DNA of 64,000 bases. Origin: an uncultured Eubacterium sp. Lineage in GTDB: Bacteria; Bacillota; Clostridia; Lachnospirales; Lachnospiraceae. The position numbers and the translations under genes are program-made. The notes below the pieces were generated by a model. It was not told where the DNA came from and did not search any database. It was given only the letters and a program-made list of their open reading frames with translations. The DNA lies in assembly GCA_947088865.1 (NCBI GenBank), contig CAMUHY010000002.1:186001-250000 (forward strand), given 5' to 3'. This document shows, piece after piece, positions 1 through 39,302 of this stretch (positions within the stretch are counted from its first letter, which is position 1; each line of letters opens with the position of its first letter).

Positions 1-137
1 ACAAATCCTGCGGAAGTGGAAAGACCTGCGCCTGCGCCGATCACAATGGCGTCGGCAGATTGGATTGATTCTTTCAGGCGGCTAATTTGTTCGGAGTAGC
101 TTTTTGTAGATTTCGTAGTCCAAATCCTTGAAAACAT
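1..137 (-). CDS. SirTM-type sirtuin, N-terminal fragment (cut by window edge)
   Basis: Only the first 45 codons lie in the window; the gene runs off the left edge. The ATG at 137 overlaps the end of the macrodomain gene and is preceded at good spacing by AAGGTGAT, which decides the start. Residues 34-45 read GAGAGLSTSAGF, the NAD-binding glycine/serine motif at the start of the sirtuin (SIR2) fold. Sirtuins encoded next to a zinc macrodomain belong to the SirTM class, which is known to ADP-ribosylate a partner protein rather than deacetylate. The 56-bp overlap with the macrodomain gene suggests translational coupling. The writer/eraser pairing is inferred from context because the catalytic core is not visible. 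Confidence 0.82.
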   Translation of the reverse strand, partial: MFSRIWTTKSTKSYSEQISRLKESIQSADAIVIGAGAGLSTSAGF

Positions 138-861
138 TAAATATCACCTTGATTTCGCTTTGTTTTTGCGCCATAAATTCCGTTACAGTCTGTATGGCGA
201 TTTCGGCTGCACGGTCGTTTGGAAAATGAAACTCGCCCGTAGAGATACAGCAAAATGCAATGCTGTTTATTCTGCTCAGTGCCGCAAGCTCCAAGCAGGA
301 ACGGTAGCAGGACGCAAGCAGTTTTTCATCTTCCTTTGTCACACAACCTTTCACGATTGGACCGACTGTGTGAAAAACATAATCGCATGGAAGATTATAG
401 GCAGGTGTGATTTTGACTTTACCCGGTTCTTCATCAACGATCTGTTCCAGCATAATATCCGCACAGGCAAGGCGCAACTGAACACCTGCAAAGGTATGGA
501 TGGCATTGTCAATACAGCCGTGATTCGGGCAAAAGCAGCCAAGAAGCTGTGAGTTTGCGACATTAACGATAGCGTCACACCGAAGCGTTGTAATATCCCC
601 CTGCCAAAGGTAGAGATTATCCTTTTCAGGCGATAGATCTTCCAGTAGCGTTATCCCTTTCCGTGCGGTTTCCTCCTGCAAATACTCATCCTGTACTTGC
701 AAAAATTCCTCTGATACAGGCTCCGGCATACGGATATTAAAAAGCGAACGCAGGAGCTTCTTTTGCTCATCAGCGTTCGCTGGAATCTGCATATCCGCAT
801 ATTTCGGCTGCTCTGCGAGCAATGCTTTGATTAAGAAAATCCTTCTTTCCGTTTGATTCAT
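82..861 (-). CDS. Zinc-containing macrodomain protein-ADP-ribose hydrolase
   Basis: 259-residue protein. Residues 1-75 are a helical N-terminal extension. The macrodomain starts with GDITTLRCDAIVNVANS (88-104), which carries the ADP-ribose-binding Asp and Asn. The insertion GCFCPNHGCIDNAIH (108-122) holds the Cys/His ligands typical of the zinc-macro subclass that sits beside SirTM sirtuins. ISTGEFHFP (206-214) is the distal-ribose/phosphate loop. Members of this class remove ADP-ribose added by SirTM. The ATG overlaps the upstream PNPOx-ferredoxin stop (ATGA) and has a GAGGCGG ribosome binding site. In staphylococci and streptococci the pair sits with GcvH-L and LplA2; neither is visible here, so the modified target is unknown. 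Confidence 0.9.
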   Translation of the reverse strand: MNQTERRIFLIKALLAEQPKYADMQIPANADEQKKLLRSLFNIRMPEPVSEEFLQVQDEYLQEETARKGITLLEDLSPEKDNLYLWQGDITTLRCDAIVNVANSQLLGCFCPNHGCIDNAIHTFAGVQLRLACADIMLEQIVDEEPGKVKITPAYNLPCDYVFHTVGPIVKGCVTKEDEKLLASCYRSCLELAALSRINSIAFCCISTGEFHFPNDRAAEIAIQTVTEFMAQKQSEIKVIFNVFKDLDYEIYKKLLRTN

Positions 862-1478
862 TTGCCGCCTCGTTTCCCAACTGCATGAACAGGGCAGTTT
901 TCATAACAGTTTCCGCAGTGCAGACAATGTTCCTGCCGGATAAAATAAGGCTTGCCCTGCGTAATGCACTGCTGCGGACAGCCACGCTGACATTTCCCGC
1001 ACCCAATACAGCTATCGGTGATAACATATCCTTTTTCGGAAAGCGTTCCCGCTCCAAGCGTATAACTTTCCCTGAAAATCGGCTTTACGCCAAGATTGAA
1101 GTATTCAATCTCTGCATCTTTTATCTCGAAAATAATCCCTATTTTTCGGGTATCGCCCGGATAAACATTTGAGAGGTAGGGCTGCTCTGCAAAAATCGTG
1201 TTGATTTTTTCTTCCTGCTCCGATTCGGGGGCAGGCTGCGCCTTTGCTGACAGCCGTATCATTTCTTTGAAACGGGTATAGGCGAGTATCTGTACCTTTC
1301 CGTTCTCAAGAAGCTCTTGGCAAAAGTTTTTTCCTCTTGCAGTAAAGAAATAAAAGCTGTCGCTGTCATAATGAATTGCGCTGATACAGCGAATTTGCGG
1401 ATTGCCCTCGCTGTCAACGGTTGCAAAGGACAAAACGCCGACAAGCTTCAATTTTTCCATACAGGTTTTTGCGTCCAT
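858..1478 (-). CDS. Pyridoxamine-phosphate-oxidase-like domain fused to 2[4Fe-4S] ferredoxin
   Basis: 206 residues from the ATG at 1478, chosen because GGAAGG lies 9 nt upstream; an ATG nine bases earlier would abut that site. Residues 5-145 form a split-barrel flavin-binding domain of the pyridoxamine 5'-phosphate oxidase family. The C-terminus has two ferredoxin motifs, CIGCGKCQRGCP (C157, C160, C163, C167) and CLHCGNCYENCP (C185, C188, C191, C195). The fusion predicts FMN-to-ferredoxin electron transfer in the cytosol; the substrate is unknown. It sits between a nitroreductase and the macrodomain gene in the same operon, so it is probably a redox carrier or reductase for that pathway. Confidence 0.85.
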   Translation of the reverse strand: MDAKTCMEKLKLVGVLSFATVDSEGNPQIRCISAIHYDSDSFYFFTARGKNFCQELLENGKVQILAYTRFKEMIRLSAKAQPAPESEQEEKINTIFAEQPYLSNVYPGDTRKIGIIFEIKDAEIEYFNLGVKPIFRESYTLGAGTLSEKGYVITDSCIGCGKCQRGCPQQCITQGKPYFIRQEHCLHCGNCYENCPVHAVGKRGGK

Positions 1479-1497
1479 ATACACCATCCTTCCTAAA

Positions 1498-2097
1498 TTA
1501 TTTTAGCGGTGCCTGATTATAGAAACAGGTCTCGCTAAGCGGCTTCCTGTGGCAGCCGAGTTTGATATTCGGTACAAAATCATCTGCCGGATAGCCGACA
1601 TAAAGCATACACACCGGCTGCCATGTTTCGGGAATCTTCAAAAGCTCTTTTGCCTTATCTTCATCAAAATAGCTGATCCATACCGTTCCAAGACCAATAC
1701 TTGCCGCTTCCAGCATCATATGTGTGGCGACAATCGTTCCGTCTGTCGCTCCGCTACTTTTTCCGCTCTGCGGGTGTGTCCAGCAGGCAGTTTTGTCATA
1801 ACACACAAACAGTACAAGTGGTGCGCCGTAGTAGAGATTGATTTTTCCATGCTCTTTATCGTCGCACTCTTTCGATAAATCCACATACTTCTGATCGTAA
1901 CCGAAAGAGCAGAACTCCTTGACCTTCGCCAGATTTTCAGGCGTATTCAGTATAATGATTCTTTGCGGCTGTGCGTTTACCGCAGTAGGCGACCATCTGC
2001 CGGCTTCCAAAATCTTCTCTATTTTTTCTTCCTCAACAGGCTTCTGCGAGAATTTGCGGACAGTTACCCGCATTTTGGAAATATCCATAAAATCCAT
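1498..2097 (-). CDS. Nitroreductase family protein
   Basis: 199-residue FMN-dependent nitroreductase-fold protein. The N-terminal MRVTVRKFSQKPVEEEKIEKI is followed by GRWSPTAVNAQPQRII, the canonical FMN-phosphate-binding start of the family. The middle segment ASIGLGTVWISYFDE is also typical. Such enzymes reduce quinones, nitroaromatics or other electrophiles using NAD(P)H. The length is normal and the start has GAGGGA 6 nt upstream. It is one of two nitroreductases in the operon; this one has no ferredoxin domain. In Bacillus, HxlR-family regulators control nitroreductases during electrophile stress, which matches the HxlR gene at the head of this operon. Confidence 0.93.
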   Translation of the reverse strand: MDFMDISKMRVTVRKFSQKPVEEEKIEKILEAGRWSPTAVNAQPQRIIILNTPENLAKVKEFCSFGYDQKYVDLSKECDDKEHGKINLYYGAPLVLFVCYDKTACWTHPQSGKSSGATDGTIVATHMMLEAASIGLGTVWISYFDEDKAKELLKIPETWQPVCMLYVGYPADDFVPNIKLGCHRKPLSETCFYNQAPLK

Positions 2098-2114
2098 TTA
2101 TATCCCTCGCTTTC

Positions 2115-2999
2115 TTAACTTCGTTCCTGCTCCGAATAGCGGTGGATTTTGGCTTTTCTGTCTTTTTGCACGCCTCTTGCATACGGTATTTCAGGGTAGC
2201 CAAAGCCCACAATCAGTTTCATATAATGGTCGGGCGGTATATGAAGCATTTTTTTCGCTTCCGGTGCAAGTTCTATGAGTACATCTGCCGGATAACTCAT
2301 AATAATCGTACCCAATCCAAACGCATTGGCGAGCAGTTCAAAGTAGGCAGTCGCAATATTGCAATTTACTTTGGAATCTTCCGCCCACTTGCCCGAACAT
2401 TTTTCGTGGGCAATAAACAGATGGGGCGCACCGCAAAAAAGCAGATCATCTTTTCGGACGGTTTTCTCCGATTGTTTCATTTTGTCATAATAGAAGTCGC
2501 TGAAGCTGGAAGTGTAAATGTGTTTTCTGGCGGCTGATTCCATTTTTGAATATGCAAGCTGCCAGATTTCTTTTACCCTGTTTTTATCGTCAATTACCGT
2601 ATATTCCACGCTGCTTGAATTTCCCCCGGTGGGAGCAGCCTGCATAGCGTTTAATATCCTGTCAATCGTCTGCGGTTCAACATTTTTATCAAGGTATCTG
2701 CGACAGGAACGGCGGCTCATTACAAGCTGCTCCATATAACCACCCATTTCAGACGGCGGCAGAGGAAGTGAGTTTTCAGGTTCTTTATCGAAAATAGAGA
2801 TTGCGCCTGTCGGACACACCGCAAGACAATGCTGGCACCTCCAACATCCCCTCCATCCAAACCGCTCAAAATCTCTCATCTGTGGACAGCCCTCTTTGCC
2901 GAGAGACAGCACCATGCCGGAGCAGGTGTTTACGCATTTCCCACAGCTAATACATTTTGATTTATCTACCTTAAAATGTGTTTTTTGTTCCATGCCCAT
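2115..2999 (-). CDS. Ferredoxin-nitroreductase fusion protein
   Basis: 294 residues. The N-terminus carries two [4Fe-4S] motifs (C16, C19, C22, C26 and C52, C55, C58, C62). From about residue 90 it is a nitroreductase domain, with SRRSCRRYLDKNVE and AAPTGGNSSSVEYTV as the FMN-binding part and GLGTIIMSYPADV near the C-terminus. This architecture is common in anaerobes, where ferredoxin clusters feed electrons to the flavin. The ATG has AGGAGA 8 nt upstream. It lies 17 bp upstream of the second nitroreductase and 22 bp downstream of the dehydrogenase, so it is co-transcribed. The substrate cannot be read from sequence. Confidence 0.92.
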   Translation of the reverse strand: MGMEQKTHFKVDKSKCISCGKCVNTCSGMVLSLGKEGCPQMRDFERFGWRGCWRCQHCLAVCPTGAISIFDKEPENSLPLPPSEMGGYMEQLVMSRRSCRRYLDKNVEPQTIDRILNAMQAAPTGGNSSSVEYTVIDDKNRVKEIWQLAYSKMESAARKHIYTSSFSDFYYDKMKQSEKTVRKDDLLFCGAPHLFIAHEKCSGKWAEDSKVNCNIATAYFELLANAFGLGTIIMSYPADVLIELAPEAKKMLHIPPDHYMKLIVGFGYPEIPYARGVQKDRKAKIHRYSEQERS

Positions 3000-3021
3000 T
3001 GCTTATTTCTCCTGCCTGCTG

Positions 3022-3993
3022 TCAAATGGTGACAACAATCTTTCCGTTTACGCTTCCGCTGTCAAGAGCAACACAAGCGTCCTTAATCTGCTCAAAGCCA
3101 AAACTTGCTCCGATGGCGGGTTTCAGACCGTGATTGTCTAAAAACTCAAAAATATCCCGCATTGTTTTTTCGGTCGGATAGTTGGAAAAAAATCCGGTGA
3201 GATATACTCCATTCGGAATATCCTTAATCGGATCAAAGCCGTTCAGCGTATATAAGCCGCCCAAAATACCCGTATTGCAGACGATTCCGCCCTTTTCTAC
3301 ACAGCGGAGCGTGTCAGGCAGGGTTTTGGAGCCGACCAGCTCCAACGCTTTTGTTATGCCGTTTAAGGTATCACAAAGCTTTCCCGTATCAAGAATCGCT
3401 TTATCCGCCCCCGTAAGCAACGGCAGCTTACTTTCCTTATGCGTTGTTGCAACAACAGTACAGCCAATGGCTTTTGCTATCTGAATTGCCGCATAACCAA
3501 GCGCACATGTAGCGCCACGAATCAATAATGTATCGCTTGGTTTCAGATGGAGGCATTCAAAAAGCGAACCCCATGCTGTAAAATAGGTTTCGGGGATTGC
3601 CGCCATATCCGTCCACGAAAGCGCCGACTCCACAGCAAATACATGATGAATCGGTAAAAGTGCATATTCTGCATAGCTTCCGTGAAAACTGCGCCCCATA
3701 CCGCCCATAAGAGCGACAACCTTTTGTCCGGCTGTAAAATTGCTGTCCGAGGGATCGGCTATCTTTCCAACGCATTCAATACCGGGAATAATCGGTTTTC
3801 TGATATAGTCGGCTCTGATTTCGTTTAACCGCAAAATCTGCTCAGAGTGATTCATTCCAAATGCTTTTATTCTTACAAGTACCCAGCCGGGCTTTACTTC
3901 GGGAATCGGAATCTCACAAAGTGCAACATTTTCGGCTTCTGTTGGTCTGTCAAGCAAAACCGCTTTCATTGTCGTATTCACAGGCGCCCTCAC
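3022..3993 (-). CDS. Zinc-less alcohol dehydrogenase / quinone oxidoreductase family protein
   Basis: 323 residues, MDR superfamily. The N-terminal catalytic domain has GMNHSEQILRLNE and IIPGIECVGKI. The Rossmann domain carries GATCALGYAAIQIAKAIG (from residue 160), the AxGxxG-type NADPH motif of quinone oxidoreductases. The structural-zinc cysteine cluster is absent, which fits the quinone-reductase branch. The start is taken as GTG at 3993 because it forms a GTGA overlap with the radical SAM stop codon; an ATG at 3969 aligns well with relatives but lacks a spaced ribosome binding site. The likely role is NADPH-dependent reduction of a quinone or reactive enone. Confidence 0.88.
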   Translation of the reverse strand: MRAPVNTTMKAVLLDRPTEAENVALCEIPIPEVKPGWVLVRIKAFGMNHSEQILRLNEIRADYIRKPIIPGIECVGKIADPSDSNFTAGQKVVALMGGMGRSFHGSYAEYALLPIHHVFAVESALSWTDMAAIPETYFTAWGSLFECLHLKPSDTLLIRGATCALGYAAIQIAKAIGCTVVATTHKESKLPLLTGADKAILDTGKLCDTLNGITKALELVGSKTLPDTLRCVEKGGIVCNTGILGGLYTLNGFDPIKDIPNGVYLTGFFSNYPTEKTMRDIFEFLDNHGLKPAIGASFGFEQIKDACVALDSGSVNGKIVVTI

Positions 3994-5042
3994 TTTCTGA
4001 ACAAATCGCTGTTCTCATCTGCCCAGCACTGCGGATCGGCGGCATAAAAATCTCCGTTTGTTCCTTTTGCGACTGCGGGGCAGCCCCGGCAAAATGCAAG
4101 TAGCTTACATTTTGCACATTTGCTGAATTTTGTGTATTCCCGGTAACACTCCATATTTGCTACCCATATATCGGCAAGACGGTCGGCAAAGATATTCCCT
4201 ACATGGCTGTCCGCTACCCGGCGGCAGGCGTAAACTTCACCTGTGGGAAGAATGGTGATATGGCAGTTTCCGCAGTTGCAGCCGCCGTAAATCATGCCGT
4301 CCTTTGCGTTTTCGGGAATTTTGAACTCTCCCGTTTCATATTCATACAGCATCCAAAGGTGATCCTTTTTATTAAAGTAGGTATCACAGCCCTCCGCTTC
4401 GTACTCTTTGAATTTCTTATCGCACACGGCAAGCAGGTCACGATATTCCTGCGGCGTCATACTCGCATCGAGATCGCCGCCGCTGGGAACATAACGGGAA
4501 AAAGCAAATACATTCACGCCTGCTTTTACAACAGCGTCGATAATACCGGGGATTTCCATGCGGTTTGTCTTGGAAACCGTCGTCATCACAACGCTGCGGA
4601 TTCCTGCACGGTTAATACAGCCGATTTTTTCAAGAGTGCAATCGTAAGAGCCGGGTTTTCTAAACCAGTCGTGTGTCTCACGCAGACCGTCGATTGACAA
4701 CTGATATTTCTCACAGCCGTATGCTTTCAGTTCACGGCAGACCTGATCGTTTAAGTGGAATGGATTTCCGAGAATGGTAAAAGGTACGCTGTGTTCGTGA
4801 AGCAGTTCCAGAAGTCTCCAAAAATCAGGGTGCAGAATCGGATCGCCGCCCGTAATATAGAAATAGGGCAAACGGTTATAAACCTCGCAAAAATCAAGGC
4901 AATTATAAAAAGTGTCCTGCATTTGCTGCCAACTCATAGAATCTATTTTTTTACAGGTATCTCCCGAAAAAATATAACAGTGCTTGCACCGCTGATCGCA
5001 CTCATCAGTAATGTGCCATTGAAAAGAAAAATATTGCTTCAT
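3990..5042 (-). CDS. Radical SAM/SPASM peptide maturase, ACGX system
   Basis: 350 residues. The radical SAM cluster motif is C15-x3-C19-x2-C22 (CDQRCKHCY), followed by ITGGDP (63-68), the GGE-like SAM-binding segment. The C-terminal SPASM region is cysteine-rich (C255, C257, C260, C273, C309, C312, C318, C321, C339) and should hold auxiliary Fe-S clusters. SPASM enzymes install carbon or thioether crosslinks in ribosomally made peptides. The gene directly upstream in the operon encodes a peptide with six ACG motifs, which identifies this as the ACGX-type maturase (TIGR families for the maturase and target, from memory). GAGGT lies 8 nt before the start. Confidence 0.9.
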   Translation of the reverse strand: MKQYFSFQWHITDECDQRCKHCYIFSGDTCKKIDSMSWQQMQDTFYNCLDFCEVYNRLPYFYITGGDPILHPDFWRLLELLHEHSVPFTILGNPFHLNDQVCRELKAYGCEKYQLSIDGLRETHDWFRKPGSYDCTLEKIGCINRAGIRSVVMTTVSKTNRMEIPGIIDAVVKAGVNVFAFSRYVPSGGDLDASMTPQEYRDLLAVCDKKFKEYEAEGCDTYFNKKDHLWMLYEYETGEFKIPENAKDGMIYGGCNCGNCHITILPTGEVYACRRVADSHVGNIFADRLADIWVANMECYREYTKFSKCAKCKLLAFCRGCPAVAKGTNGDFYAADPQCWADENSDLFRK

Positions 5043-5093
5043 ATCGCATACCTCGCTTTATATAAAATCGGTTATACCGAGTAACATCTAAAT

Positions 5094-5123
5094 GTTCCCG
5101 GCGAGAGCGTTCCCGCCGGGAAC
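5094..5123 (-). promoter_or_regulatory. Intercistronic hairpin between ACGX peptide and maturase genes
   Basis: Perfect 10-bp inverted repeat GTTCCCGGCG / CGCCGGGAAC with a 10-nt loop, lying between the peptide stop and the maturase start. It lacks a T-run on the minus strand, so it is more likely an mRNA-stabilising or attenuating hairpin than a full terminator. Such hairpins often keep precursor-peptide mRNA more abundant than maturase mRNA. The role is inferred. Confidence 0.6.
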
Positions 5124-5148
5124 AGCTTTGGGATAGAGAACGGAACAA

Positions 5149-5370
5149 TTATTTGTCGCCAGCGCCGCAAGCAGAGCCGCAAGCTGCAGGCTTTTCCTCC
5201 GGCTTGTCGGCTGCACCGCAAGCTGCGGGAGTTTCGGCAGGCTTATCGCCAGCGCCACAGGCAGAGCCACAAGCAGCAGGCTTTTCTTCCGGCTTGTCAA
5301 CCGCACCGCAAGCTGCGGCAGGAGCAGCCTCCATTTTCTTGTTCCATCCAAACAGATTAGAAAGTGCCAT
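5149..5370 (-). CDS. ACGX-repeat ribosomal peptide precursor
   Basis: 73 residues with a leader MALSNLFGWNKKMEAAP and a core rich in Ala, Lys, Pro and Glu. Six ACG motifs place cysteines at 21, 34, 38, 51, 64 and 68. The core is a 30-residue unit present twice (C21/C51, C34/C64, C38/C68), and its DNA is a clear 90-bp direct repeat. There is no signal peptide. It is the predicted substrate of the radical SAM/SPASM enzyme encoded downstream, with the cysteines as likely crosslink or metal-binding sites. The start has a perfect ggaggt ribosome binding site. The mature product and its function are not established; a redox or metal-binding role is a guess from the operon partners. Confidence 0.88.
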   Translation of the reverse strand: MALSNLFGWNKKMEAAPAAACGAVDKPEEKPAACGSACGAGDKPAETPAACGAADKPEEKPAACGSACGAGDK

Positions 5371-5423
5371 TGTTTTGACCTCCGTATAAGTATTCAGCGA
5401 GCGTTTTGCTCTCTGTATCTATT

Positions 5424-5451
5424 ATTTTACTGATTTTTTTGCCCTCCACAA
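5424..5451 (-). promoter_or_regulatory. Candidate promoter of the ACGX/redox operon
   Basis: On the minus strand, TTGTGG (5451-5446) and TAAAAT (5429-5424) are separated by 16 bp, about 55 bp before the ACGX start codon. This is the best -35/-10 pair in the divergent intergenic region on this strand, but each hexamer departs from consensus. It lies close to the dyad at 5474-5489. Confidence 0.45.
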
Positions 5452-5465
5452 GTACGCACTTTTTT

Positions 5466-5500
5466 ATTACCCAGTCACCTTTTTGTGACCTTTGCGTAAT
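5466..5500. promoter_or_regulatory. Dyad in the divergent hxlR/ACGX intergenic region (candidate operator)
   Basis: Perfect inverted repeat GTCAC-N6-GTGAC at 5474-5489, flanked by a looser outer pair ATTAC (5466-5470) and GTAAT (5496-5500). It sits just upstream of the candidate -35 of the ACGX operon and between the two divergent genes, the usual location for an HxlR-family operator. Binding is inferred only. Confidence 0.5.
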
Positions 5501-5558
5501 AGCAGGGTTTTTGGAGCGAAAAAAATTTGAAAAAAATTTGTGACATATAAAAAACCTA

Positions 5559-5587
5559 TTGAAAAATGGCGAGTGTTGCAGTATAAT
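5559..5587 (+). promoter_or_regulatory. Promoter of the HxlR-family regulator
   Basis: TTGAAA at 5559-5564 and a perfect TATAAT at 5582-5587 with a 17-bp spacer, about 50 bp before the start codon. This is a near-consensus vegetative promoter. Confidence 0.75.
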
Positions 5588-5637
5588 AAGAATGTAACAT
5601 TCAAATATGATGTAATATAATTTTTGGAGGTTTTTAT

Positions 5638-5970
5638 ATGCTAACAAAGGACGAAATGCCAGCTTGTCCCGTAGCGACAACCGTACAGATGATAGGTAGC
5701 AAATGGAAATTGCTTATTATGCGTAATCTTCTTGCCCGTCCGTGGCGCTTTAATGAATTGAAAAAGGATTTGGAGGGTATCAGTCAAAAGGTATTGACGG
5801 ACAGCCTTCGCTCTATGGAGGATGACGGTATTGTTATTCGTACTGTTTATCCCGAAGTCCCGCCGAGAGTAGAATACGCTCTATCAGAACTTGGTGAATC
5901 TATGCGACCGATTATTAAATCTATGGAGTTGTGGGGGTTAGATTATAAATCCAATTATAAAGGCGAATAG
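5638..5970 (+). CDS. HxlR-family winged-helix transcriptional regulator
   Basis: 110 residues, the usual length for the family. It opens with CPVATTVQMIGSKWKLLIMR and continues with RFNELKKDLEGISQKVLTDSLR (the recognition-helix region) and the wing RTVYPEVPPRVEYALSELG. Cys10 occupies the position of the redox-active N-terminal cysteine of Bacillus YodB, CatR and HypR, which sense quinones, diamide or hypochlorite and control nitroreductases. The gene diverges from an operon containing two nitroreductases and a quinone-reductase-like enzyme, so it is the likely local regulator. A GGAGG ribosome binding site precedes the ATG and a strong terminator follows. Confidence 0.93.
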   Translation: MLTKDEMPACPVATTVQMIGSKWKLLIMRNLLARPWRFNELKKDLEGISQKVLTDSLRSMEDDGIVIRTVYPEVPPRVEYALSELGESMRPIIKSMELWGLDYKSNYKGE

Positions 5971-5981
5971 AATCATATGTA

Positions 5982-6012
5982 GCCGTCTGCAAACGCAGAC
6001 GGCTTTTGCTTT
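5982..6012 (+). terminator. Rho-independent terminator of the HxlR gene
   Basis: Stem GCCGTCTGC / GCAGACGGC (5982-5990 with 5995-6003), loop aaac, followed by a short T-rich tail (ttttgcttt). It lies 12 bp after the stop codon and its tail meets the 3' end of the opposing conjugation-gene remnant. Confidence 0.85.
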
Positions 6013-7140
6013 AATACTGCGGCACACCATAGCCGAGTATCTGATAATTTCCTATGGAATACTGATTGATTCGGCAACTATCGCCGGAATTGCCTTCGAC
6101 TGTATAAACAATACCATTCTCGACTTTCTCAACGATCCCCACATGATCGGATTCTCCGTCGCTGTCCCAATCAAAGAAAATAATCATATCGGGAATAGGC
6201 TCGGCAGAGCCGTCAAGCCATTGCACTCTGTCCTTAAACCATTGCACTCCGTTGACGCAGCCTGCAAACTTCGGGATAACCCCGGTATCAATATAGCCGC
6301 ACTCGTTAGCGCACCAGCTCACAAAGCAGGCGCACCATTCCACACGACCATTAAAGCCATACCACGACCAATAAGGCTGACCGCCGACATTGCCGACCTG
6401 AGACAAAGCAACGGTCACGATCTGATCGCTGCTGTACGAAATACCATAAAGGACAGCCGACCAAAGCGAATTGTTTTCATCTTTCAGCAATTCAGCAAGG
6501 TAATCCTTCTGCTCCTGATTGAAGCCGTACTGAGCCGCCATTTCATCGACCGTCTTATGGGAAACCGTGATATAGAGATAGGTTTGCGTCACGCTCGTTT
6601 CCATCTGCACGATGTTCCCGTGTCCGTCATCGGTTTCGGTAATCTGTGTTTCCGTCTTACTTTTCGTTCGGGAAGATATTGCATTCATCTCCCAAAAGAT
6701 GTCCGTCAGGATTTGCTTCTTGGAATCGTCCATCGTCGCAACTTCTTGTGGGTTATCTTCATCTGTATTTGTTTTAACAGCGTAAACCGCAAGCACATCT
6801 TTCCACACAGCTCTGCTTCCACTCATTTCAAGAACATCAAAAGATACTTTGTCTTTTTCTGCTTGCAGCTTGGTATCATACTCCGTGTTGATTTCCTGCA
6901 CCACCGTCTGCATACTCATACCCGTCCCGCTGTCCTCGCCGGAAAAGAATATCCCGAACACAGAGCCGATCAACAGCGCAATCAGGCAAATCACGATAAT
7001 TACGACCACCGCAATCCAGCCTGCTTTTCCTTAAACTGCCGGATTCCGTCCTTCGCTTTTGAAAAGTTCTGTTTTGTTGCTTCAACGCCCTTTCGTCCCT
7101 GTTTGTCAAACTGATAAAAACTTGTAGTTTGCAACCAGAT
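6011..7140 (-). pseudogene. Truncated, frameshifted conjugative-transposon gene (CD1108-like, CHAP amidase)
   Basis: The open part (6011-7009) gives a transmembrane segment VVIIVICLIALLIGSVFGIFF, a lipoprotein-like linker and a C-terminal CHAP-type amidase domain (EWCACFVSWCANECGY, DHVGIVEKVENG). This is the peptidoglycan hydrolase found in Tn1549/CD1108-type conjugative elements. Upstream, another frame still reads a cytoplasmic tail, including QGRKGVEATKQNFSKAKDG (about 7100-7044), ending in a stop just past 7025; joining the two parts needs a one-base shift near 7021-7027. The true N-terminus is missing before about 7140. I read it as a decayed remnant of an integrative conjugative element. 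Confidence 0.72.
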
Positions 7141-7150
7141 ACACCACACA

Positions 7151-7191
7151 ACGCAAAAAGACCTTGAAAGGTGTTATCCTTTCAAGGTCTT
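7151..7191 (-). terminator. Rho-independent terminator downstream of lysS
   Basis: Perfect 14-bp stem AAGACCTTGAAAGG (7158-7171) with its complement at 7178-7191 and a 6-nt loop; read on the minus strand it is followed by TTTTTGCG. It could end leftward lysS transcription, or it may belong to the adjoining element remnant. Confidence 0.75.
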
Positions 7192-7212
7192 AATCTACTT
7201 AACTCCAAAATC

Positions 7213-7311
7213 CACCTGCTTTGCAGGTGTCTTCCTGATTTTGTCGTTAGCATATCAGGTGAAAACAAATACTTCGCTCCGCTCGTGCTTATTTTCCTGC
7301 TGATATGCTAA
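7213..7311. repeat. Cluster of palindromes next to the element boundary
   Basis: Contains CACCTGC-ttt-GCAGGTG (7213-7229) and a long imperfect palindrome whose outer arms are a perfect 12-bp repeat, TTAGCATATCAG (7247-7258) and CTGATATGCTAA (7300-7311). There is no coding potential. It may be an element end, an origin-of-transfer-like structure or a small folded transposable remnant; which one cannot be decided from sequence. Confidence 0.6.
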
Positions 7312-7350
7312 ATTATGCGATTTTTTCATCCCTGCACAAATCTTTGCACC

Positions 7351-7380
7351 GTTTGATGTAAGTTTGATGTAAAGATGTAA
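7351..7380. repeat. Tandem 11-bp repeats, candidate integrase arm-type sites
   Basis: GTTTGATGTAA occurs twice head to tail (7351-7361 and 7362-7372), followed by a partial copy GATGTAA (7374-7380). Short direct repeats near the end of an integrative element are typical binding sites for the N-terminal domain of tyrosine integrases. They lie 50-80 bp from the lysS stop codon, next to a decayed conjugation gene, suggesting the element boundary falls around 7380-7430. Confidence 0.5.
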
Positions 7381-7428
7381 TTTTGAGCGTTTTCCCAAGT
7401 CCGCAAACCCCCCATAAATAGGGACTTT

Positions 7429-8940
7429 TTAACCTTTTTCGTTAGGTAAGGACTTCATTGTCGGGAACAACAACACATCTCTTATTGCCGCAGAATTTGT
7501 CAACAGCATAACCATTCTGTCGATACCAAAACCAATGCCACCCGTTGGAGGCATACCATACGCCAGCGCATTTAAAAAGTCATCATCTGTATGATTGGCT
7601 TCCTCGTCACCTGCTGCAAAGGCTTCCTCCTGCGCCGCAAATCTTGCCTTCTGGTCGATTGGGTCGTTTAATTCCGAATAGGCATTTGCCATTTCACGCC
7701 CTGTTATAAATAATTCAAATCGTTCTGTGTATTCAGGTGCATCGGGCTTCTTCTTTGTAAGAGGAGAAATTTCAATTGGGTGGTCCATAACAAATGTTGG
7801 CTGAACTAAATTTTCCTCAACAAATTCCTCAAAGAATAAGCTTAAAATATCACCCTTTTTATGTCTCGCCTCAAATTCAATGCCCTTTGATTTTGCTACC
7901 TCTTTTGCTTCGTCATCAGAATGAATTTGTGTAAAATCAACGCCTGAATATTTTTTAACCGCATCAAGCATGGTGATTCTCTCAAATGGCTTTGAAAGGT
8001 CTATCTCCACATCACCATATGGTATAATAGTTGTTCCATTTACTTTTTGACATACTGTTCGATACATATTTTCCGCTAAATCCATCATGCCATAATAATC
8101 GGTATATGCCTGATAAAGCTCCATCAATGTAAATTCTGGATTGTGTCTTGTATCAACGCCTTCATTTCTAAATACACGCCCTATCTCATATACCTTTTCA
8201 AGTCCGCCGACAATTAATCGTTTCAAATAAAGCTCCAAAGAAATGCGCAAATTAATATCCTCATTTAAGGCATTATAATGAGTCTGGAATGGTCTTGCTG
8301 CTGCACCACCTGCATTGGCAACAAGCATTGGCGTCTCAACCTCCATAAAGCCCTGTTCATCAAGGAAGTTGCGTATTTCTTTTATAATTTGTGACCTTTT
8401 AACAAATGTATCCTTTACTTCTGGATTCATAATAAGGTCAACATAACGCTGTCTATAACGTTGGTCTGTATTGGTCAGTCCATGATATTTTTCAGGAAGG
8501 ACTTGCAAACTCTTTGTAAGAAGAATGATAGATGATACATGTACGGATATCTCGCCCTTTTGCGTCTTAAATACTTCTCCCTTGACACCTACAATATCGC
8601 CAATATCAAACTTTTTAAATAAGGCATAGGATTCTTCACCGACATTATCTCTTGCAACATAAATCTGAATATTTCCCTTTAAATCAGCAATATTACAAAA
8701 AGAAGCTTTACCCATCACACGCTTTTGCATAAGCCTTCCTGCAATGGATACTTCTTTTCCCTCAAGTTCATCAAAATTATCCTTTATATCTTGTGTATGA
8801 CATGTAACATCATACTTTGTTATCTGGAATGGGTCTCTTCCATCCTGTTGAAGTGTTCTTAGCTTTTCTACACGATTTTTAATCTGCTCTCCCACATCAA
8901 CGGACTTTGCATTATTTTGTGCATTTTTATTATCAGCCAA
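7429..8940 (-). CDS. lysS: Lysyl-tRNA synthetase, class II
   Basis: 503 residues, normal for LysRS. It has an N-terminal OB-fold anticodon-binding domain (about 60-165; [17 protein letters not shown]) and a class II catalytic core. Motif 1 surrounds the [15 protein letters not shown] stretch, motif 2 is [20 protein letters not shown], and motif 3 is [14 protein letters not shown] near the C-terminus. It charges tRNA-Lys in the cytosol. greA lies upstream in the same direction but is separated by 321 bp with its own structured leader. The DNA immediately beyond its 3' end appears to be the junction with an integrative element. Confidence 0.98.
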
Positions 8941-37246: not shown

Positions 37247-37472
37247 ATCTTTTACATACCTTTCTGCAAATTTATCATAAAATGATATTTTTCTATTATA
37301 GTAAACTATAAATGCCTTTACATTATACCTATTTTTATTGTCTACTTCAAGATGGTTTCAGAAATCGAATGTAAGCTATTTTAGTACAATATACACAAAT
37401 AAATAAAAAAGATTGTTGCATAAACAATAAGTCTAAAAACACAACTTATTATGTTTAACAACAATCTTTTCT
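37247..37472. other. Intergenic region upstream of nth
   Basis: 226 bp, AT-rich, no gene. It contains the terminator of the ABC operon (37407-37464) and presumably the nth promoter; no strong promoter was identified. Confidence 0.5.
37407..37464 (-). terminator. Long hairpin terminator of the MacB-like ABC operon
   Basis: GATTGTTGCATAAACAATAA pairs imperfectly with its complement near TTATTATGTTTAACAACAATC; on the minus strand TTTTTTATTT follows. It lies 9 bp after the ATPase stop codon. Confidence 0.82.
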
Positions 37473-38201
37473 TTATTTTATATTATTTTCAATATCTGTT
37501 CTATTTTGCTTAAGCAATTCATTATAACTGTCATTTACAATTTTTCCATCATTAATTGTAATCACTCGGTTGGTCATCGAAGCTATTTTTGTATCATGTG
37601 TGACGATAATAACCGTTTTTCCTGTTTTATTGATATCCTTTAAAAGGTTTAAAACTTCCTCTCCAGTTTTTTGGTCTAAAGCTCCTGTCGGTTCATCTGC
37701 CAGTATTATATTTGCATCCATTACCAAAGCCCTTGCAATTGCAACTCTTTGCTGCTGACCTCCAGACATTTTTGCAGGTTTTTTATTAATAACGTCTTCA
37801 ATTCCTAACTGTTTTACAACTTCACTTATCTTACTTACTCTGCTGCTTTTTTTTACATTATTTATTAAAAGAGGCAGTTCTATATTCTCATATGCTGTAT
37901 AGTAATCCATCAAAGCAAAATGCTGATATATAAAACCAATTTCACTTTTTCGTATCTGCTCTATATCTTTTCGTCTTAACCCCAAAGTGTCTTTGCCATT
38001 GATTAAATAATGCCCTTCTGAATAATCCAATACACAGCCAAGAATATTTAACAATGTACTTTTTCCAGACCCTGATGGTCCCATTATCGCTATAAATTCT
38101 CCATCTTTTATTGTCAAATGAACATGGTCTAAGGCTCTCACTATAATACCTGATGAATCATATATCTTACTTACATCAATAATTTCAATCAAATTTTTCA
38201 C
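37473..38201 (-). CDS. ABC transporter ATP-binding protein (MacB/LolD type)
   Basis: 242 residues. Walker A GPSGSGKSTLLNILG, Q-loop IGFIYQHFALMDYYTA, signature KMSGGQQQRVAIARALVMD and Walker B NIILADEPTGALD are intact. Conservation is closest to the MacB/LolD/FtsE group that pairs with FtsX-like permeases, two of which precede it. These systems use ATP to move lipoproteins or peptides at the membrane, not to import solutes. The start is uncertain: GTG at 38201 or a TTG at 38192 with AAGGTG 6 nt upstream. Confidence 0.93.
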   Translation of the reverse strand: MKNLIEIIDVSKIYDSSGIIVRALDHVHLTIKDGEFIAIMGPSGSGKSTLLNILGCVLDYSEGHYLINGKDTLGLRRKDIEQIRKSEIGFIYQHFALMDYYTAYENIELPLLINNVKKSSRVSKISEVVKQLGIEDVINKKPAKMSGGQQQRVAIARALVMDANIILADEPTGALDQKTGEEVLNLLKDINKTGKTVIIVTHDTKIASMTNRVITINDGKIVNDSYNELLKQNRTDIENNIK

Positions 38202-38210
38202 CTTCTCATC

Positions 38211-39302
38211 TTATATATATTTAAAACTCTCTTTATTCTTTAGAACTTTATATAATGGATAAAGCATTGTTCCCAATACTGCTGCAAATTCTGCACCAAC
38301 AACAAGCAAAATATTTCTTGCTGTAATAGAAATGTCTGCTCCTCCACATATTCCAATCACCATATATATAACTAAAAAGGCACAACAGGACAACAGACTA
38401 ATCTCTACAATCTCACGCATCATATCTATAATTAATCGCATGTCACCCATTCCCAACAACTTTTTAATTGCATATTCTTTTCTTCGCTGAAGAATCCAAA
38501 ATTCCGAAACAACCATACAATTCAAGATACAAAAACAATATGCAATAACATTTATTTTTAGATTTTCCTTTGCTAATGTCTGTTCTAATACACTGTCGTT
38601 ATCACTGTTTATTTTAACAGCCTCAATAGCGCTATCCCCATCATAGCTTTTTATATTTCCATATACCATAGAATATGTCTTTTCTTCTATGTTGGAATCA
38701 CTGCATAGTTCTACTGTATATGAAAGTTGTTTTGTCAACGCCTTCTTTACATTATCGCCCATTGAATCCATATGAAAAACTAGCTTGTCATCCCAATAAT
38801 CCGAAACTTCACTTCCAATAATTCCAACAATTTTATACTTTTCACCCTCTATTGTCAAAAATAAATCATCACCTTGCTTTATTGCAATCTTTGCTTTATT
38901 TTTTCCAACAGCAATTTCATTGCTTTTTGGGGTTCCCGGTAATCGTCCGCTTAAAACTGGATACTTTAAAGATTCATTATTTTTTAAAATAACCTCGCAT
39001 AAATATGATTTGCCCAATTCTGCAATTGCCACACTAAATTTCTTTTTTATTATTAAATTGCATTGTTCAACATCACTACTTATTCCAGAAATAACATCTG
39101 TTTTCTTGGATGTTGTTATCTGCATCTGTATTACATTCTTATACAATGAACGAAGCCTGTCATTTTCCTTGTTATACGCTTTATTATATACACCAAGCGC
39201 ACCAAATATCGTAAACAGCACAATCACTTGTCCAATTACCATAAATGTAGCAGTCAATCTATAACGAAACAAACGTTTTACTATTTTCATACAAATAACC
39301 AT
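38211..39302 (-). CDS. FtsX-like permease, second of two
   Basis: 363 residues. One N-terminal membrane helix (LTATFMVIGQVIVLFTIFGA), an extracytoplasmic domain of about 200 residues, and three C-terminal helices (about 250-270, 300-320, 330-350). This is the MacB/FtsX layout. It precedes the ATPase by 9 bp and follows the larger permease by 48 bp. The two permeases are divergent from each other and probably form a heterodimer with the ATPase. Confidence 0.85.
   Translation of the reverse strand: MVICMKIVKRLFRYRLTATFMVIGQVIVLFTIFGALGVYNKAYNKENDRLRSLYKNVIQMQITTSKKTDVISGISSDVEQCNLIIKKKFSVAIAELGKSYLCEVILKNNESLKYPVLSGRLPGTPKSNEIAVGKNKAKIAIKQGDDLFLTIEGEKYKIVGIIGSEVSDYWDDKLVFHMDSMGDNVKKALTKQLSYTVELCSDSNIEEKTYSMVYGNIKSYDGDSAIEAVKINSDNDSVLEQTLAKENLKINVIAYCFCILNCMVVSEFWILQRRKEYAIKKLLGMGDMRLIIDMMREIVEISLLSCCAFLVIYMVIGICGGADISITARNILLVVGAEFAAVLGTMLYPLYKVLKNKESFKYI

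Follow-up and report, generated by a model that had tools for sequence, protein, structure and literature searches.

Class M sirtuins (SirTM) are known from an extended operon of Lactobacillales and Staphylococcaceae, in which they are encoded together with GcvH-L, LplA2, a zinc-dependent macrodomain protein (Zn-Macro), OYE and LLM (PMC4518038, PMC11490716). In tests of proteins from this operon, SirTM modified GcvH-L alone, and did so far better after lipoylation (PMC4518038). According to a 2024 paper on Zn-Macro, no SirTM substrate other than GcvH-L is known, and the targets of other SirTM/Zn-Macro pairs are elusive (PMC11490716). Here we describe an operon at the left end of a 64,000-nucleotide stretch of DNA (the window) from an uncultured Eubacterium sp. 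of the Lachnospiraceae (contig CAMUHY010000002.1, positions 186,001 to 250,000), in which a SirTM/Zn-Macro pair is joined to an ACGX-repeat peptide (AcgA), its radical SAM/SPASM maturase (AcgM) and several redox enzymes. ACGX peptide systems, redox enzymes and the ADP-ribosylation pair are repeatedly joined, mostly in gut Bacillota, and we read the window operon as a second, so far undescribed kind of SirTM extended operon.

The window operon has in common with the SirTM extended operon the adjacent or overlapping Zn-Macro and SirTM genes, flavin oxidoreductases, a small protein that is modified (in the window, by prediction) with its modifying enzyme, and a proposed role in oxidative stress. 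Unlike that operon, it has no GcvH-L beside the pair, and family scans of the nine operon proteins named neither a GcvH nor a lipoate ligase; it has instead an ACGX peptide and radical SAM maturase, other reductases, and an HxlR/DUF24 regulator with its own conserved element. The peptide and maturase are those of the ACGX system as named by NCBIfam (TIGR04340/TIGR04341; acgM and acgA in a RefSeq plasmid), to which the present analysis adds the regulator, the element and the partnership with SirTM/Zn-Macro. A first-pass annotation, made from the letters alone, had known of no description of this combination. In a literature search that covered mostly non-subscription papers, none was found that joins SirTM with radical SAM or with HxlR, or that joins radical SAM, macrodomain, sirtuin and ribosomally synthesized and post-translationally modified peptide (RiPP). 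The words "radical SAM" occur 0 times in the main text of PMC4518038 and PMC11490716. No paper was found under the ACGX model names and phrases tried, ACGX as a word appearing, among the papers listed, only in unrelated uses.

The eight leftward genes of the first-pass annotation, from acgA to the sirtuin, were all located on the minus strand with the spacing it described, and the divergent hxlR gene on the plus strand (Table 1). From acgA onward, they are separated by a gap of 106 bp, an overlap of 4 bp, gaps of 22, 17 and 10 bp, and overlaps of 4 and 56 bp. The sirtuin had been supposed to be the last gene, but a ninth, encoding a DUF5131 protein, follows 4 bp on, beyond the window's left edge; position 5970, the other limit given, is the end of the hxlR gene. 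The sirtuin was rightly named, and only its first 45 codons lie in the window, the rest being beyond the left edge. Such spacing, in which neighbors overlap (by 4, 4 and 56 bp) or stand 4 to 106 bp apart, suits a single predicted transcript.

The adjacent acgM and acgA products both score above the curated cut-offs of their families. In AcgM, C15, C19 and C22 (CxxxCxxC) were invariant in 12 aligned relatives, as were C255, C257, C273, C309, C312, C318, C321 and C339. The best solved relative of the sirtuin, PDB 5a3a, is presumably the SirTM of Streptococcus pyogenes. The catalytic position of SirTM is Gln, replacing His, in 103/103 aligned SirTMs (Gln140 in the window copy), and the 56-bp overlap links its gene to that of Zn-Macro. 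The best solved relatives of Zn-Macro are 8rsi (288.2 bits) and 5kiv (251.4 bits); from the alignment of 8rsi with the window copy we read off a CxxxxHxC motif, beside CIDN, which we take to be the zinc site. This motif is present in 51 of the 53 full-length Zn-Macros from acgM loci (three short ones set aside) and in 30/33 from other SirTM loci (one short set aside), the SirTM and Zn-Macro alignment sets including some duplicate contigs. The window pair is thus predicted, from family membership, to comprise an ADP-ribosyltransferase and an enzyme that removes the modification. For the PNPOx-ferredoxin, the matches listed in a PDB search were relatives only of its two separate parts, and the quinone-reductase-like protein scored 150.4 bits with TIGR02824, under the cut-off of 296.8.

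Lack of conservation of the gene order outside this strain had been named in advance as an observation that would refute the first-pass reading. The order was compared in two sets of loci, in both of which it was kept. A sample of the window's family (299 genomes, 298 genera) contained the maturase in 37 genomes at E <= 1e-80 (36 above the cut-off) and a peptide match in 31 (30 above the cut-off), all 31 being among the 37 maturase genomes; among 398 phylum genomes, the maturase was found in nine, the window's genome counted. The first set (n = 41) comprised 37 fetched stretches and the window's own locus, which together hold 38 maturase places, and three plasmid loci; four loci end within 4.5 kb downstream, leaving 37 usable. 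The sirTM gene lay within 7 kb of acgM in 24/37 of these, or in 22/34 without the plasmids, and among the 24 SirTM-bearing loci a separate Zn-Macro was found in 15 and a Zn-Macro-SirTM fusion in one. The second set consisted of the best 80 of at least 586 maturase relatives in named genomes; these are 77-91% identical and so near relatives, and the set partly overlaps the first (same contigs, e.g. L211 and L062). Where at least 4.5 kb was available downstream (n = 49), sirTM was found within 7.5 kb in 33 loci and Zn-Macro in 31; where at least 1.5 kb was available upstream, the ACGX peptide was found in 62/66. The quinone-reductase-like gene and ntrB, an alternative nitroreductase gene, occurred together in 0/37 first-set and 2/49 second-set loci, and relatives usually carry either one or the other.

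The operon is also found outside the family and on plasmids. Zn-Macro and SirTM are in the operon of four of eight maturase genomes outside the family, two of these loci (L228 and L230) being the same as L148 and L169. Four of 72,556 plasmid records carry the maturase, two being versions of one plasmid. The annotation of a Roseburia plasmid lists acgA, acgM, a nitroreductase, a 4Fe-4S protein, a protein-ADP-ribose hydrolase, Sir2 and DUF1848. An archaeal plasmid, of Methanosphaera, carries HxlR, an ACG-repeat peptide, the maturase and a quinone-reductase-like gene, with PNPOx-ferredoxin on the opposite strand, and no SirTM was found at this locus. Its peptide (L037:9673-9930) is diverged, and its maturase (L037:10001-11025) is annotated as two genes. 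Carriage by phages was rejected, as no match was found among 50,697 phage records at E <= 1e-60. In the locus with the fusion (L073:1936-3477, minus strand), Zn-Macro and SirTM form a single 513-aa frame resembling the Zn-Macro/SirTM fusions described for fungi.

We then compared the ACGX-SirTM link with chance. SirTM-like genes, counted at E <= 1e-20 so that more distant ones are included, are present in 153/299 family genomes: in 33/37 acgM genomes versus 120/262 others (p = 3e-7, a guide only, since the genomes are related). Assuming one or two SirTM-like genes per 3-Mb genome, chance would by rough arithmetic place SirTM inside 7 kb at less than one usable genome locus in the 34, and it was there at 22. 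On a quick tree of 103 SirTMs (64 linked to ACGX and 39 not, the latter mostly from the top of the similarity list), the ACGX link changes 18 times, with at least nine changes forced by starred branches. Shuffled labels gave a mean of 31.6 changes, and 0/500 shuffles were as low as 18, indicating that the link is both clustered and repeated. Gains and losses of the ADP-ribosylation pair by ACGX operons have been frequent, and a one-time fusion of the two modules is rejected by this tree, in which 46 of the 98 inner branches lack resolution and one row, L058, is very long.

The window HxlR has a single Cys (Cys10), in a CPV motif, and a CP motif stands at the start of 33/34 HxlR alignments from the first set of loci; HxlR is present in 64/66 second-set loci whose upstream sequence reaches 1.5 kb or more. 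The region between hxlR and acgA contains a conserved element, GTTAC-N6-GTNAC followed after 14 or 15 bases by the core GTGCGTACTT, to which HxlR would be the candidate binder. The core was found in 30/41 first-set and 62/66 second-set loci. HxlR/DUF24 Cys switches respond to quinones, disulfide stress or related electrophiles, and a regulator of this family with an N-terminal Cys and a conserved element fits the electrophile or oxidant control that the first-pass annotation had suggested; by analogy, the inducer probably belongs to this class. In Bacillus subtilis, the N-terminal Cys of HypR, YodB and CatR senses HOCl, quinones and diamide, and these three MarR/DUF24 thiol switches control azoreductase and nitroreductase genes (PMC6943732). 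The window regulon resembles theirs in its small HxlR-type regulator, conserved N-terminal Cys and nitroreductase genes, and differs in its peptide and ADP-ribosylation genes. The formaldehyde sensor HxlR uses a Cys-x-Lys pair for its bridge (PMC7835342); formaldehyde sensing by such a bridge is not expected here, because the Lys is missing from the Cys-Pro-Val of the window HxlR.

SirTM/Zn-Macro pairs without the peptide were represented by 40 SirTM loci away from the maturases found in the family genomes, mostly from the top of the SirTM similarity list, 11 of them in genomes that hold the maturase elsewhere. No ACGX repeats were found in these 40 loci, and a weak maturase-like match lay within 4 kb of SirTM in three. 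They share with the window the same two enzymes (Zn-Macro within 4 kb in 34/40), and within the same distance there was an HxlR in 18/40 and a PNPOx-ferredoxin in 10/40. The element core was present in 12/40 and the full form in 2/40; the core stood upstream of the Zn-Macro/SirTM genes, on the same strand and within 1.2 kb, in 10/40, where arithmetic for a ten-base site with one twofold place predicts about 0.1 in 40. The HxlR of L109, a locus without ACGX, is 85% identical to that of the window. These results suggest that the pair is in an HxlR regulon with or without ACGX, and the pair seems to belong to a stress regulon in its own right; those lone pairs that have the same kind of HxlR and the core look like regulon relatives of the window operon. 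In one comparison locus, L138, a TnpB-looking frame (6884-7897, recognized by eye) lies between a full element and the Zn-Macro/SirTM pair, and the locus is perhaps a broken ACGX operon. The window's genome has a second pair (L144, G000:C21, macrodomain 37302-38120, SirTM 38163-38999), whose SirTM is 46% identical to that of the operon and whose fetched stretch holds no element core.

In 74 distinct ACGX peptides, 423/432 Cys are in ACG or SCG steps; the repeats are preceded by a leader such as MALSNLFGW, and most peptides have Asp or Glu near the Cys repeats. The crosslink that the first-pass annotation placed in the peptide is an assumption about the product of the maturase. At one locus, beside the maturase, ACGX repeats form the C-terminal tail of a flavin reductase in a single 249-aa frame (L051:10317-11066, minus strand; PF01613 47.3 bits, cut-off 27; TIGR04341 33.7 bits, cut-off 28). 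This fusion hints at an intracellular redox role of the repeats, in partnership with flavin enzymes. In the operon chains, no extra gene cluster recurred in more than three of 129 loci, and thus no shared exporter or peptidase showed up in this check, which compared 97 unassigned open reading frames with each other rather than with family libraries and is weaker in the 35/129 chains that ended at the maturase itself.

What SirTM acts on in these genomes was approached through GcvH and through the peptide. Full-length GcvH (>100 bits) was found in 3/37 acgM genomes (G015, G065 and G109); the window's genome had none over the cut-off and one match of 20.3 bits below it. As a control, the search was applied to 14 known genomes and detected GcvH in 13, with 10 scoring above the cut-off. 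Of the three acgM genomes with full-length GcvH, G015 lacks SirTM beside its maturase, and the loci of G065 and G109 end too close to the maturase to judge. GcvH-L is therefore rejected as the SirTM substrate for most acgM genomes, almost all of which require another substrate; in cis, the modified peptide and the flavoproteins are candidates. The peptides were compared after loci with less than 4.5 kb downstream, without a peptide by pattern, or with a peptide of 140 aa or more had been left out (78 rows, 74 distinct). The 49 SirTM-positive and 25 SirTM-negative distinct peptides did not differ in acidic content (p = 0.97), length (p = 0.66), number of Cys, Asp, Glu or paired repeats, and a peptide signature for SirTM was rejected. 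Lys content differed (p = 0.019, uncorrected, in seven tests) and was given no weight.

We interpret the window operon as a mobile stress operon, switched by HxlR, in which SirTM modifies a product of the regulon and Zn-Macro reverses the modification, an interpretation about which our belief and our doubt are evenly balanced. The Cys-based HxlR/DUF24 switch would control the operon through the operator-like element, and AcgM, judging by its family, would modify the ACGX repeat peptide inside the cell. The modified peptide could be a thiol or redox partner of the adjoining flavoproteins, namely the quinone-reductase-like enzyme or nitroreductase and the PNPOx-ferredoxin, as the L051 fusion helps to suggest. 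SirTM would add ADP-ribose to a regulon product and Zn-Macro would remove it, and this reversible ADP-ribosylation may tune the module, as SirTM does for lipoylated GcvH-L elsewhere. Several observations weigh against this picture. SirTM is absent from 13/37 first-set and 16/49 second-set usable ACGX loci, about a third, indicating that the ACGX system can do without SirTM in cis, and far more genomes of the family have SirTM-like genes than have ACGX (153 versus 37 of 299). Among the 24 SirTM-bearing loci, the pair is on the opposite strand in two (L050 and L058), and eight have no Zn-Macro in cis (L040, L043, L049, L054, L059, L060, L065 and L074); a Zn-Macro over the cut-off is encoded elsewhere in six of these eight genomes, G225 has none, and G090 has one only below the cut-off. 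PNPOx-ferredoxin is not significantly tied to SirTM (18/24 versus 6/13, p = 0.15), and we rejected it as an obligate SirTM partner. The strict full element is found only in 20/41 first-set and 19/66 second-set loci, and the peptide-flavin reductase fusion is a single case, with no second among the listed peptides. Finally, besides the three full-length GcvH, short GcvH matches (35-60 positions, 22-27 bits) exceed a low cut-off in 10/36 genomes; these are probably domains of biotin-type carriers.

A more specific proposal is that the AcgM-modified peptide is itself the SirTM substrate, a thiol carrier that replaces lipoyl-GcvH-L as AcgM replaces LplA2. Of the operon proteins tried, the known SirTM modified only its co-encoded carrier, best when lipoylated (PMC4518038), and in the window a co-encoded peptide and maturase fill that place and are flanked by redox enzymes, in the way GcvH-L is accompanied by OYE and LLM; the missing full-length GcvH in 34/37 acgM genomes and the acidic residues near the Cys repeats agree with this. 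The peptides beside SirTM, however, are like those without it, which tells against the peptide as the ADP-ribose acceptor. The first-pass annotation had proposed reversible ADP-ribosylation as either a control on the peptide and its redox partners or a modification of them; as put there, the peptide as target is not supported. HxlR and the same core element also accompany the pair where there is no ACGX, and about a third of usable ACGX loci lack the pair. We regard the proposal as unlikely. Were it true, the ACGX peptide would be a genetically encoded redox carrier, installed by its maturase, in the place of lipoyl-GcvH-L as a SirTM substrate that depends on its modification, and a second, chemically different carrier under reversible ADP-ribosylation; this too we think improbable.

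The pair could alternatively share with the ACGX genes nothing but the HxlR regulon, the promoter and the mobile element, its targets being encoded elsewhere. The HxlR and core near SirTM genes away from the maturase, the ACGX loci without SirTM, and the place of the window copy on an island with a Tn916-type integrase at lysS (see below) would all be expected if so; but the association recurs over many genera and plasmids, beyond a single hitch-hike, and co-occurrence in genomes is strong. This explanation is possible, if doubtful. Very improbable, in our view, is an operon that makes a secreted RiPP, antimicrobial or signal, with the redox and ADP-ribosylation genes for self-protection: AcgM does belong to the SPASM peptide-maturase class, but the comparison of unassigned reading frames with each other turned up no recurrent exporter or peptidase cluster in these chains of genes, the peptide is fused to a flavin reductase in one case, and the regulator adjoining the operon is of a thiol type. 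The ACGX operon is a promising, if unproven, place to look for a new bacterial ADP-ribosylation target. It offers a conserved gene set with a short list of candidate substrates, in genomes nearly all without a detected full-length GcvH, and a regulator with a candidate operator. The ACGX system gains a physiological setting in a stress regulon that has a Cys switch and includes flavoproteins, and SirTM/Zn-Macro appears as a common module in the window's family.

Table 1. Features of the operon and its surroundings. Positions are those of the window; L005 is the window's own locus stretch, which reaches beyond the left window edge.
Feature	Position	Strand	Evidence or remark
SirTM (class M sirtuin), first 45 codons in window	1..137	-	best PDB match 5a3a, 249.4 bits
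SirTM whole gene, 289 aa, mostly outside window	L005:9268-10137		starts at window 137
DUF5131	L005:8376-9263		PF07505 137.8 bits
Zn-Macro (zinc-dependent macrodomain), CxxxxHxC motif	82..861	-	NF003163 357.2 bits, cut-off 272
PNPOx-fold flavoprotein with C-terminal 4Fe-4S ferredoxin domain (pnpfd)	858..1487	-	PF01243 and Fer4 families
Nitroreductase	1498..2097	-	PF00881 111.3 bits
Ferredoxin-nitroreductase	2115..2999	-	PF00881 85.7 bits and Fer4 families
Quinone-reductase-like oxidoreductase (zinc-type alcohol dehydrogenase superfamily)	3022..3993	-	PF08240, PF13602, PF00107
acgM, radical SAM/SPASM maturase of ACGX system	3990..5042	-	TIGR04340 590.3 bits, cut-off 400
acgA, ACGX-repeat peptide, 73 aa	5149..5370	-	TIGR04341 98.4 bits, cut-off 28
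Operator-like element GTCAC-N6-GTGAC-N14-GTGCGTACTT, between hxlR and acgA	5450..5489	-	
HxlR/DUF24 regulator, divergent from operon	5638..5970	+	PF01638 102.7 bits
CHAP-domain protein of carrying element	6011..7009	-	PF05257 52.7 bits
Right end of carrying island, ~150-bp repeat	7310..7460		also at L005:3584-3733

The operon lies on an integrated element. To its left are the DUF5131 gene, a helix-turn-helix gene, a sigma-like gene, a MazF-Xis fusion and a Tn916-type integrase gene, the integrase and excisionase matches being to PF02920, PF00589 and PF09035. The direct repeats of about 150 bp, which have few differences, include the 3' end of lysS, indicating that an island of about 13.9 kb, inserted at lysS (G000:C2, about 179,584-193,460), carries the operon, which forms most of its cargo. 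Integrase, excisionase and flanking repeats are those of a Tn916-type integrated element; no conjugation genes were recognized by eye among the island's open reading frames, which were only partly scanned. The CHAP protein is present as a single copy in the window's genome, has distant relatives on plasmids, and is uninformative about the operon. The MazF-Xis fusion (L005:5784-6578) is a 264-aa frame with a PemK/MazF-like toxin domain fused to an excisionase domain of Tn916 type.

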